DNA from: Desulfobacter vibrioformis DSM 8776
Lineage (GTDB): Bacteria > Desulfobacterota > Desulfobacteria > Desulfobacterales > Desulfobacteraceae
Assembly (NCBI RefSeq): GCF_000745975.1
Contig: NZ_JQKJ01000001.1
Coordinates: forward strand, 186,001-250,000
DNA: 64,000 bases
Reading direction: 5' to 3'
Made by a program: the position numbers and the translations under genes. Of the stretch, positions 61,382 to 64,000 are shown one piece after another. A model generated the notes under the pieces. It saw only the letters and a list, made by a program, of their open reading frames with translations. It was not told where the DNA came from and made no database searches. Every line of letters begins with the position of its first letter. The first letter of the stretch is position 1.

Positions 61382-64000
61382 ATGAAATATATAGCAGATC
61401 TGCATATCCATTCAAAATATTCCCGGGCCACGGCCAAAAATCTGGACCTGGAGCATATTTACCTCAACGCCCAGGTTAAAGGCATTACCCTGGTGGGCAC
61501 AGGGGATTTTACCCATCCTGCCTGGATCCAGGAGATCGAGACAAAGCTTGTGCCTGCCGAACCCGGGCTGTTTGCATTAAAAAATGAGATTGCAAGGCAG
61601 ATTGACGCCGATGTGCCGGCCCCGTGCAAAGGACCTGTGCGTTTTATCCTCCAGGCTGAGATCTCCAATATATATAAGAAGGACGAAAAAGTCCGCAAAA
61701 ACCATAACCTGGTCTATATGCCGGATCTGGACACGGCAAAGAAGTTCAATGCCCGCCTGGATGCCATCGGCAATATCAAATCCGATGGCCGCCCCATTCT
61801 CGGGCTGGATGCAAGAAATCTGCTGGAGATCATGCTGGAAACATCTGACCAGGGCTTTTTTGTCCCGGCCCATATCTGGACACCCTGGTTTTCCATGTTC
61901 GGGTCCAAGTCCGGATTTGATACCATTGAGGAATGCTTTGGTGATTTAAGTTCCCATATCTTTGCCTGTGAGACTGGCTTGTCATCGGATCCGCCCATGA
62001 ACTGGCGGGTGAAAAATCTGGACAGGGTCCGGCTGATATCCAACTCAGACGCCCATTCCCCTGGATTTCTGGGCCGCAACGCTTCGGTGTTTGATACGGA
62101 TCTGGCCTTTGGCGCGGTGCGGCGTGCCCTTGAAACCCATGATCTTACAGCCTACAAAGGCACCCTGGATATGTATCCCCACCAGGGAAAATACCACTAT
62201 GACGGCCACCGCAAATGCGGGGTGTGTCTCAATCCCGATGAAACTGCGGCTTTGGGCGGAATTTGTCCCCAATGCGGGAAACCGTTGACCCTGGGCGTGC
62301 TTTACCGGGTCCGGGAACTGGCTGACAGGCCGGACGGGTTTAAACCTGAAAACCGGCATCCCCATTCCTATGTGGTGCCCCTGGCAGATATTTTATCCCA
62401 GATTTTTGGGGTGGGTCCCAATACCAAAAAGGTGAAAACCCAATATGATAAGGCGATTAATGCCCTGGGGCCGGAACTTGCCATACTCACACAGCTTTCA
62501 CCGGAAATCATTGAAGGTGCCGGTGTGCCATTACTTGCCCGGGCCATACAAAAGATGAGAGACGGGGATATTCACATTGACCCCGGGTTTGACGGTGAGT
62601 ATGGAAAGGTCAATATTTTTACCCCGGAGGAAAAAGCGCATATCCAGGGTGAAAAAAGCCTGTTCACCGGCCCTTTGCCCCGTAAAAAAGCAAAAACAAC
62701 GGTCAATGCACCGCTTTGCCGTCAAACGCCCCAAAGCAAAGATGCGGCATTGCCGTCACCTGAAAAAAAAGAGACCGCGGCATCCGTTGCCCCCGGACAT
62801 ATCCTGGACGGGCTGAACCCGGAGCAGGAGAGGGCGGTTAAATCCGAATCCCGGGCCGTGGTGATCCAGGCCGGGCCGGGCACGGGGAAAACCCGTACCC
62901 TTACGGCCAGAATTGCCTGGCTGCTCCGGGAAAACCGGTCCGCCCCTGAAAACATCCTGGCCTTGACCTTTACAAATAAGGCGGCAGGCGAACTTGCCGG
63001 CCGGATTGAATCCTTTATTCCCCAGGGCGGGCAATTTGTGACAGCAGCCACCTTTCACGGATTCTGTCTTAAACTGCTTAAGCAGTATTCAGATTTCAAG
63101 CGAGGGCTGATGGAGGATGACCTGCGCTTTGAGATGCTGGGACTGGCCTTCAAAGCCGTGACGGGCGAAAAAAAGGTACCCCAAAAAACAGTGTCAAAAC
63201 TGGATGCCTGGATCAGCCGGCAAAAGCAGCAATTCAAGGAACCTTACGATGACACCTTGGGTGACGCCGCAAGCAGCAGTAAAGACGGCTTTGATCCGGT
63301 CTGGCCCGGGGTGTACCAAACCTATGACCAGATGCTTCAGGAACGCGGTCTGGCAGATTTTGAAGATTTGATTTTCATCTGTTTCAGGCTTTTTTCCAGG
63401 GATGCGGCCCTGCTTGAACAGGTGCGTCACCGGTATAAATTTATTTTTGTGGATGAGTACCAGGACCTGAACCTGGGCCAGTACAGGCTGGTGCGGCTTC
63501 TTGCACAAAACAGTCACATTTTCGTGATTGGTGACCCTGATCAGTCCATCTACGGATTCAGGGGATCGGACAGCCGGTTTTTCAGGCGGTTTGAACAGGA
63601 TTTCCCCGGGTGCGAACAGATCCGCCTGCGCCGGAATTACCGGTCCACCCAGACCATTCTGGACGCCTCTTTCCAGGTGATTTGCACCAGCGGAGACCCC
63701 GGAAATGAGGCACGTAAAATTTATGCAAGCCTTGACAGCACACAAAAGATTTCGATCAATGAAACGGCCAGCGAAAGTGCCGAGGCAGTTACCGTGGGAA
63801 AGATCATTGAAAAAGGCGTCGGGGGGCTCTCTTTTCTGTCCATGGACAAGGGCACGGGCCCGGACCTCGAAACAGACAGGGAATATGCCTTTTCCGACTT
63901 TGCCGTTCTCTACCGCACCCGGCAGCAGGCCCAGGCATTTGCCCGGGCCTTTGAGAAGGCCGGTATCCCTTTTCAGACGGCGGACCGGGAACACTGGGTG
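61382..64000 (+). CDS. EndoQ-like PHP nuclease fused to a UvrD/Rep helicase, 3' end cut by the window edge
   Basis: From the ATG at 61382 the frame is open to the edge (873 codons). Residues 1 to about 400 resemble endonuclease Q (TIGR00375): PHP metal motif DLHIHS (His8, His10), VGTGDFTHP (Asp42, His45), SNSDAHS (Asp223, His225), and a zinc site with Cys279, Cys282, Cys295 and Cys298. EndoQ nicks DNA 5' of deaminated bases. A Lys/Pro-rich linker (about 425-470) leads into a superfamily 1 helicase: Q-motif LNPEQERAV, Walker A GPGTGKT (498-504), FVDEYQDL (Asp691, Glu692), VIGDPDQSIYGFRGSD and RRNYRST. The window ends within the second helicase half. The tail of about 200-300 residues is missing. 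Confidence 0.9.
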   Translation, partial: MKYIADLHIHSKYSRATAKNLDLEHIYLNAQVKGITLVGTGDFTHPAWIQEIETKLVPAEPGLFALKNEIARQIDADVPAPCKGPVRFILQAEISNIYKKDEKVRKNHNLVYMPDLDTAKKFNARLDAIGNIKSDGRPILGLDARNLLEIMLETSDQGFFVPAHIWTPWFSMFGSKSGFDTIEECFGDLSSHIFACETGLSSDPPMNWRVKNLDRVRLISNSDAHSPGFLGRNASVFDTDLAFGAVRRALETHDLTAYKGTLDMYPHQGKYHYDGHRKCGVCLNPDETAALGGICPQCGKPLTLGVLYRVRELADRPDGFKPENRHPHSYVVPLADILSQIFGVGPNTKKVKTQYDKAINALGPELAILTQLSPEIIEGAGVPLLARAIQKMRDGDIHIDPGFDGEYGKVNIFTPEEKAHIQGEKSLFTGPLPRKKAKTTVNAPLCRQTPQSKDAALPSPEKKETAASVAPGHILDGLNPEQERAVKSESRAVVIQAGPGTGKTRTLTARIAWLLRENRSAPENILALTFTNKAAGELAGRIESFIPQGGQFVTAATFHGFCLKLLKQYSDFKRGLMEDDLRFEMLGLAFKAVTGEKKVPQKTVSKLDAWISRQKQQFKEPYDDTLGDAASSSKDGFDPVWPGVYQTYDQMLQERGLADFEDLIFICFRLFSRDAALLEQVRHRYKFIFVDEYQDLNLGQYRLVRLLAQNSHIFVIGDPDQSIYGFRGSDSRFFRRFEQDFPGCEQIRLRRNYRSTQTILDASFQVICTSGDPGNEARKIYASLDSTQKISINETASESAEAVTVGKIIEKGVGGLSFLSMDKGTGPDLETDREYAFSDFAVLYRTRQQAQAFARAFEKAGIPFQTADREHWV

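Follow-up and report, generated by a model that had tools for sequence, protein, structure and literature searches.

An EndoQ-type nuclease joined to a UvrD-type helicase in one reading frame, with a putative clamp-binding tail, in Desulfobacter vibrioformis and many other bacteria

The EndoQ enzymes that have been studied bend DNA, flip out a deaminated base or an abasic site and nick the strand just 5' of it, leaving a 3'-OH and a 5'-phosphate; what follows this nick is not well defined. Partnerships between a nuclease and a superfamily 1 (SF1) helicase are known from other systems. AddA/RecB and Dna2 carry both parts in one chain, but their nucleases are of the PD-(D/E)XK type and act on ends or flaps, and in the Gabija system the UvrD-like helicase GajB stands beside GajA, a nuclease that belongs to another family than EndoQ. 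In this study, we analysed a stretch of 64,000 nucleotides from Desulfobacter vibrioformis DSM 8776 (contig G000:C1, 186001-250000; hereafter the window), in which an open reading frame (ORF) begins at window position 61382 on the plus strand and is still open at the window end. The contig sequence places its stop at contig position 250648; 648 bases lie past the window end and the complete gene has 1,088 codons and a stop. It had been claimed in a preliminary description, made from the window sequence, that one frame joins an EndoQ-like nuclease to a UvrD-type helicase, and the 1,088-aa ORF bears this out. The identity of these two parts is near certain, and the protein differs from AddA/RecB and Dna2 in that it carries a predicted N-terminal PHP-fold nickase of the lesion type. 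We describe here its domain content and conservation, the separation of its helicase from the housekeeping enzymes, its clamp-type tail and the fused and side-by-side forms in which the two parts occur.

The nuclease half resembles EndoQ (the Pfu, Tko, Mac and Bacillus pumilus enzymes) along its whole length, in metal ligands, base pocket and zinc domain as well as in overall sequence and fold to PfuEndoQ. Using phmmer against the PDB, residues 5-422 align to residues 5-392 of PfuEndoQ (5zb8; E 2.7e-52), with 7k30-7k33 next best, whereas the best match of the helicase half is PcrA (1pjr; E 6.9e-81); with such E values, both matches lie far beyond chance. The identity of the nuclease half to PfuEndoQ is 32%. 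An AlphaFold model of residues 1-426 has a predicted local distance difference test score (pLDDT) of 92.7 and a predicted template modelling score (pTM) of 0.91, and Foldseek identifies 5zb8 as the nearest solved structure to it (template modelling (TM) scores 0.84/0.89, 2.6 A), followed by the EndoQ-DNA complex 7k30 (TM 0.82/0.88), the PolIII-alpha chimera 4gx9 being far worse (TM 0.32/0.42). A PHP domain of the PolIIIA or histidinol-phosphatase type, which had been named beforehand as the refutation of the EndoQ assignment, is ruled out by these scores. No Pfam family scores above its cut-off within residues 1-470, and the sole NCBIfam match in the EndoQ half is the hypothetical equivalog TIGR00375, at 169.5 bits and thus below the curated cut-off of 326.6; the same model is matched by 42 of 42 aligned fusions at E<=0.001 and in three control genomes, in two of them above the cut-off. 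It is on these Pfam and NCBIfam scores, rather than on an annotated record, that we agree with the earlier expectation that annotation pipelines would probably name the helicase only, and bacterial EndoQ is probably hidden under the label 'UvrD helicase'.

It has been reported that E76, H84 and H139 of PfuEndoQ are catalytic or metal-binding residues and that its pocket residues G169 and S171 shut out normal bases (available part of PMC8307549). Comparison with the solved EndoQ shows that the counterparts of E76, H84, H139 and D193 are conserved (Table 1), the equivalence of Pfu D193/H195 to D223/H225 being made by position, and the HxH, TGDFTHP and SDAHS hallmarks of the preliminary description are all present (residues 8-10, 40-46 and 220-226). 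Conservation was counted over 106 fused, 16 pair and 43 solo rows, corresponding to 105, 15 and 43 genes (L265 = L182, L267 = L154), and labels were set by hand for L159 (pair), L010 and L109 (broken fused frames) and L077 (fused, though its frame stops at 477 aa). The sole exception to the pocket serine (Pfu S171) falls among the pairs (15/16 rows). Relative to Pfu, the window protein has a 17-residue insert before E93 and about seven residues after it. A further difference concerns the zinc site, which had been read as four cysteines. This does not stand, as the aligned ligands are H276, C279, C295 and C298; C282 is an extra cysteine outside the conserved pattern and makes the site look four-Cys. 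Where Pfu has Cys as the first ligand, 104 of 106 fused rows and 42 of 43 solo rows have His. In a separate case, G019:C15:48888-50240, the match to the EndoQ half falls into two pieces of the same frame, interrupted near residue 255 as though by a short insertion, and three other genomes of the same genus likewise give two EndoQ matches.

The helicase half is matched by PF00580 (226.6 bits; cut-off 23) and PF13361 (150.5 bits; cut-off 25.6), and UvrD and Rep match it in addition to PcrA. Like these enzymes it has all SF1 motifs, of which Q, I, Ia, Ib, II, III, IV, IVa and IVb lie within the window and motif V (residues 983-992), motif VI (1019-1032) and the C-terminal tail lie past position 64000; the full motif set claimed earlier is therefore correct for the whole gene and incorrect for the window. 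Its equivalog scores, however, are far under the cut-offs (PcrA 394.6 against 911.2, UvrD 321 against 1144.45 and Rep 313.8 against 951.45 bits), and two features of its relatives set the EndoQ-linked helicases further apart from UvrD, PcrA and Rep. Many carry an insertion before motif IVa with the consensus GGxSFFSxDSGR, the strict pattern being found in 18/40 fused, 6/11 pair and 0/18 usable control helicases and a loose one in 25/40 fused and 5/11 pair helicases; a broader pattern also matches motif Ib of ordinary UvrDs. In addition, the stretch between motifs IVb and V, which is mostly 2B, is often short, with a median of 172 residues in 11 controls and 99 in 27 fusions, as measured by regular expression in 27/40 fused, 8/11 pair and 11/19 control rows. 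It comprises 118 residues in the window protein and 34-35 in four pair helicases from Omnitrophota (L161, L185, L187, L188), in which 2B is almost gone, and a full-length 2B region is kept in some fusions from Desulfobacterota and in several pairs. The 2B region restrains Rep and UvrD, and its loss would therefore fit a helicase that is governed by its partner.

The trees point in the same direction. A branch with a support of 99 separates the 40 fused and the 11 paired helicases from 18 UvrD/PcrA controls, several of which come from the same genomes as linked helicases (the mis-framed control L243 was excluded). When 28 helicases from 27 genomes with mostly solo EndoQs were added, the 51 linked and five unlinked helicases formed one branch with a support of 95, and the control L270 stood next to the linked helicases on a branch with a support of 33; it was excluded from the next tree. 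With a further 15 helicases, the UvrD side (17 controls and 10 new rows) has a support of 99 and holds no linked helicase, and the EndoQ-linked helicases form a grade outside the UvrD branch and not a proven clade. Judged by these placements, the EndoQ partner helicases are not housekeeping UvrD/PcrA proteins. The search for unlinked relatives covered 35 EndoQ genomes, three of which were fused controls, and placement covered some, not all, of the second-rank helicase matches. A helicase match at E<=1e-30 was absent in G267, G483 and G812, the G760 helicase forms a long uncertain branch, and, apart from the eight genomes discussed below, the placed matches of the other genomes group with UvrD/PcrA. 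As an observation in its own right, the unlinked L301 (G480), L302 (G398) and L304 (G441) lie on the EndoQ-linked side, and the first two end in QKGLF.

For the nuclease half, a FastTree analysis of 166 rows rooted on PfuEndoQ, in which close relatives of the window genome were thinned and cut rows excluded, places 20 solos on one side (support 87) and 145 rows on the other (support 93), the outgroup branch being long and the root unsure. The larger side holds all 106 fused rows, the 16 pairs and 23 solos, and the architecture changes 19 times on this tree compared with 52.7 times in shuffles. Distances between EndoQ halves and between helicase halves correlate with r 0.78 (n=51), the best of 1000 permutations giving 0.19; most of these rows are fusions, and shared descent alone gives much of r.

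The window protein ends in QLELF (residues 1084-1088), which is a sliding-clamp-type motif. Within the last 15 residues, Q[LMI]xL[FL] occurs in 53 of 65 distinct complete fusions, two of which (L068 and L130) seem to be broken close to the terminus, and a loose form of the motif in 61, the shuffle expectations being 0.14 and 2.1, respectively; neither form is found in two broken frames, in L165, which reads QLRLM, or in L132, whose QLSLL stands farther in. The Q of the tail is invariant in 42/42 aligned fusions. The motif was found in none of the 18 control UvrDs, two of which (L255 and L270) are cut before the C-terminus. At least the loose motif is present in 8/8 complete pair helicases (L185, L187 and L188 are cut before the C-terminus), and for six of the eight the EndoQ partner ends in the motif as well, L160 reading ELALF and L114 having no motif. 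Many stand-alone bacterial EndoQs have such a tail as well (strict motif in 9/42 and loose motif in 22/42 solo EndoQs); the fusion differs from them in having the motif at its helicase end, with a trace left at the junction between the halves, where 31/65 complete fusions show the loose motif. From its sequence, the junction GEKSLF of the window protein is likely a remnant of the tail of a stand-alone EndoQ. In a structure model of the close homologue L092 both halves fold well, and the linker (426-467; pLDDT under 50) and the tail (1105-1124) are predicted to be disordered, so that the QL[SD]LF-type peptide expected of a beta-clamp client would lie at an exposed end. We infer that the fusion protein may bind the beta clamp via this C-terminal motif. 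It has already been noted in 2016 that bacterial EndoQs have beta-clamp motifs at their ends (available part of PMC4858679). Clamp binding by a bacterial EndoQ is thus not new as an idea, and the addition made here is the place of the motif at the helicase end.

The fusion is no peculiarity of one assembly. Among 40 genomes, comprising the window genome and its relatives up to the order, the EndoQ half is found in 38 and a fused-length frame of at least 989 aa in 35, which argues against an artefact; the three exceptions are broken frames in G006 and G014 and a contig end in G021. A frame error or a chimeric assembly is ruled out by 65 distinct complete fused frames of over 880 aa. Separately from these, the frames of L038 (G014), L010 (G006), L109, L130 and L077 are interrupted by stops or frame changes and represent assembly errors or decayed genes. 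EndoQ matches were found in 178/192 genomes of the class and 193/297 of the phylum, and among the 149 phylum matches listed, 75 frames are at least 880 aa long, 73 are under 600 aa and one lies between, frames cut by contig ends included. When the best 80 loci of a named genome collection were ranked by likeness to the fused query, a ranking in which the proportion fused does not equal prevalence, 70 were fused (including L109 and L130 with broken frames and several cut by contig ends), five were adjacent pairs (L114, L140, L159, L160, L161), two were solo (L108, L166) and three did not have enough downstream sequence (L127, L156, L162). The preliminary description had proposed a survey across Desulfobacterota; the range of the fusion extends far beyond that phylum. 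The records that carry fusions bear the labels of about 15 bacterial phyla, many of these records being metagenome-assembled genomes whose labels may in some cases be wrong: Desulfobacterota/Thermodesulfobacteriota, Chloroflexota, Gemmatimonadota, KSB1, Planctomycetota, Actinomycetota, Fibrobacterota, Binatota, Myxococcota, Verrucomicrobiota, Melainabacteria, Aerophobetes, Latescibacterota and Alphaproteobacteria. In Actinomycetota the gene is sporadic, EndoQ being found in 4/198 genomes, three of them with frames over 1,000 aa, and fusions are seen in Saccharothrix, Saccharopolyspora, Nocardiopsis and Actinopolyspora, for example. In Omnitrophota, the phylum of Candidatus Aceula, 68/117 genomes have EndoQ and five have fused-length frames.

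A two-gene form, with EndoQ followed by the helicase on the same strand, is found in Omnitrophota, Elusimicrobiota and some Desulfobacterota. Between the EndoQ stop and the first helicase residue that aligns there are 18 to 313 bases, except in L159, where the two overlap slightly. Nine distinct pair genes came from the two-gene survey, to which L140, L159, L160 and L161 are added; L114 and L072 were scored as pairs and may be frame breaks. Alternation between fused and adjacent genes is a classic sign of a functional pair. The many solo forms mean that the link is not obligatory.

We consider it fairly probable that the fusion is a clamp-tethered repair protein with two engines, which would nick 5' of a deaminated base and then peel away the damaged strand. 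Because fold, metal ligands and pocket are conserved, the EndoQ half would be expected to flip out uracil, hypoxanthine, xanthine or an abasic site and to nick the strand just 5' of it. The flexible linker would carry an SF1A helicase, presumed from its family to move 3'->5', which could load at the nick on the undamaged template strand, travel in the direction of the polymerase and lift off the strand with the lesion as a flap, starting at its 5' end. Through its C-terminal QLELF the protein may stay attached to the beta sliding clamp, to which DNA polymerase and ligase are recruited as well; the polymerase would then fill from the 3'-OH and the ligase would seal. A helicase linked to EndoQ in many unrelated bacteria is a candidate for the next enzyme after the nick, and this step can be examined with a single purified protein. 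Two further predictions that are simple to check come from the conserved tail of the clamp type and from the shrinking of the 2B region. EndoQ would also come to be seen less as a speciality of archaea with few bacterial examples and more as a repair factor widespread in bacteria.

Several points weigh against such a dedicated nick-and-peel protein. For every fused member we infer the cutting specificity, the unwinding and the order of events, and the relative placement of the two halves is undefined in the L092 model (pTM 0.58). The short 2B region of many members could mean altered or lost unwinding. Among the solo-ORF loci sampled in the phylum, 3/32 proved to be pairs and 29/32 are followed by no helicase within the downstream sequence covered, which ranges from 258 bases (L206) to 4049 bases, and because many bacterial EndoQs have no adjacent helicase, the helicase is not essential to EndoQ chemistry. 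Dedication of the helicase to EndoQ is questioned by the eight of 32 non-fused genomes in which an unlinked helicase falls on the EndoQ-linked side (G337, G309, G216, G480, G398 and G441, and, on long branches, G231 and G268), and its exclusive association with EndoQ by the sampling of the helicase trees, which was from EndoQ-bearing genomes only. Finally, uracil-DNA glycosylase (UDG; PF03167) is found in 265/297 genomes of the phylum compared with 193/297 for EndoQ. Because UDG is so common, uracil need not be the main substrate, and EndoQ as a general UDG substitute is unsupported by these counts.

It would also be conceivable, though we hold it to be unlikely, that the helicase acts before the cut, opening or scanning the duplex or following a fork and feeding single-stranded DNA to EndoQ, and that it has no role in unwinding after the nick. 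EndoQ cleaves uracil and hypoxanthine in single-stranded DNA (available part of PMC11354406), the clamp-type tail would suit a scanner linked to the fork, and the flexible linker sets no constraint on the order of cut and unwinding; however, the cutting of a single-stranded template at a fork would be expected to cause breaks. Quite unlikely is a drift in specificity that has turned this EndoQ relative into, for example, a nuclease for abasic sites in general or for flaps, with replication or recombination intermediates instead of deaminated bases as the targets of the fusion. The low identity to PfuEndoQ (only 32%), the position of the linked helicases apart from UvrD/PcrA, the coexistence with UDG in most genomes and, in some Desulfobacterales, neighbouring RdgC-like genes (10 loci) and dnaN (8 loci) would be in agreement with a drift, but the checked metal and pocket residues, including the counterparts of G169 and S171, are kept in 106/106 fused rows (H8 and H10 as given in Table 1), and the EndoQs of Bacillus pumilus and Methanosarcina retain their specificity (available part of PMC6202378). 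Defence against phages or plasmids, with the nuclease and a GajB-like UvrD helicase directed at uracil-containing or foreign DNA, is highly improbable, for although the helicase half is matched by PADLOC models of GajB (the window protein reaching 292.8 bits with the best of them) and a review mentions that bacterial EndoQ may join antiviral defence (available part of PMC8307549), these matches cover the helicase only and are expected of any UvrD relative, the EndoQ is covalently joined to its helicase, near-universal in the order and present in 178/192 genomes of the class, and the recurrent, identified flanking genes are housekeeping genes (at some loci RdgC-like, dnaN and gyrB), no scan of the flanks with defence models having been made. 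A plasmid- or phage-borne gene is likewise ruled out, as a tblastn search (E<=1e-5) of 72,556 plasmid records and 50,697 phage records gave no match.

Returning to the clamp-tethered repair protein, it probably complements glycosylase repair by acting on hypoxanthine, xanthine and abasic sites, except where UDG is missing. The window's own genome has a weak UDG match (E 3.6e-11). In family f97, all ten EndoQ-positive genomes (G246, G281, G313, G341, G367, G391, G413, G434, G454, G474) have fused-length frames (1087-1298 aa) and none has a PF03167 match; the statement covers EndoQ-positive genomes, and since 20 of the 104 EndoQ-negative genomes of the phylum are listed, EndoQ-less members of f97 may exist. 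More tentatively, and here our doubts are somewhat stronger than our confidence, we suggest an old pan-bacterial excision-repair route that would use no glycosylase, in which clamp-tethered EndoQ works with its own UvrD-type helicase, be it fused, in a two-gene operon or sometimes unlinked, and which could be the main defence against cytosine deamination in lineages without UDG.

A description of an EndoQ-helicase fusion was not found in the full texts searched, a scope that excludes most subscription papers and all figures. Desulfovibrio homologues of EndoQ are named in a paper from 2015, in which Figure 9A consists of domain drawings of bacterial EndoQs (available part of PMC4357722), and this figure might already show the fusion. 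EndoQ, UvrD helicases and clamp tails are each known, and as far as the literature covered goes, their fusion is a new combination.

Table 1. Positions in the window of the two halves of the EndoQ-helicase gene and of the motifs within them
Feature	Window position	Strand	Basis or conservation
EndoQ-type nuclease half (PHP catalytic, zinc and helical domains), residues 1-426	61382..62659	+	phmmer, AlphaFold model, Foldseek
Metal motif H8-I-H10	61403..61411	+	Aligned to Pfu H8/H10; H8 in 104/106, H10 in 105/106 fused rows
TGDFTHP, residues 40-46	61499..61519	+	Motif in translation
Metal ligands E93, H108 (Pfu E76, H84)	61652..61711	+	Conserved in 106/106 fused, 16/16 pair, 43/43 solo rows
H164 (Pfu H139, metal and pocket)	61865..61885	+	Conserved in 165/165 rows
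Base-pocket G199, S201 (Pfu G169, S171)	61970..61990	+	G in 165/165 rows; S in 164/165
SNSDAHS, residues 220-226, with D223, H225 (Pfu D193, H195)	62039..62059	+	Conserved in 165/165 rows
Zinc site H276-x2-C279 ... C295-x2-C298	62207..62275	+	Alignment to Pfu C249/C252/C268/C271
GEKSLF at EndoQ-helicase junction	62648..62665	+	Relatives often GQxSLF; window protein without Q
Linker between halves	62660..62803	+	Disorder predicted in close homologue L092
UvrD/PcrA-type SF1A helicase, residues 475 onward	62804..64000	+	Pfam, PcrA match; window end cuts at residue 873
Helicase motif I (Walker A) AGPGTGKT	62870..62893	+	A, G, P, G, G, K, T invariant in 42 fusions
Helicase motif II VDEYQD	63449..63466	+	Motif in translation
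Helicase motif III GDPDQSIYGFRG	63530..63565	+	Motif in translation
Insertion VGGLSFLSMDKG	63818..63853	+	In many EndoQ-linked helicases, consensus GGxSFFSxDSGR

Upstream of the gene, the window encodes a DHH-family protein, an EF-P-like factor and a thioredoxin-like protein. The downstream neighbour is a transglycosylase-like gene, named by its cluster, and further downstream lies what we take to be a galU-like gene. At some Desulfobacterales loci the opposite strand carries an RdgC-like gene (10 loci; the score of the representative is right at the Pfam cut-off), one gene without a name, dnaN (8 loci) and gyrB (5 loci). In L100, L104, L106, L107, L110, L111, L115 and L127 the EndoQ gene is close to dnaN, most of these loci having the RdgC-like gene and five gyrB; the EndoQ gene is fused wherever its end is covered, L127 being cut. 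This neighbourhood is probably the origin region, and as the synteny of one lineage it gives a weak hint at function.

One further observation concerns the strain label of L141 (G497), Rhodococcus rhodnii NRRL B-16535. The genome has a size of 12.4 Mb and its EndoQ groups with that of Kibdelosporangium (L152) with full support, and the label is possibly wrong.

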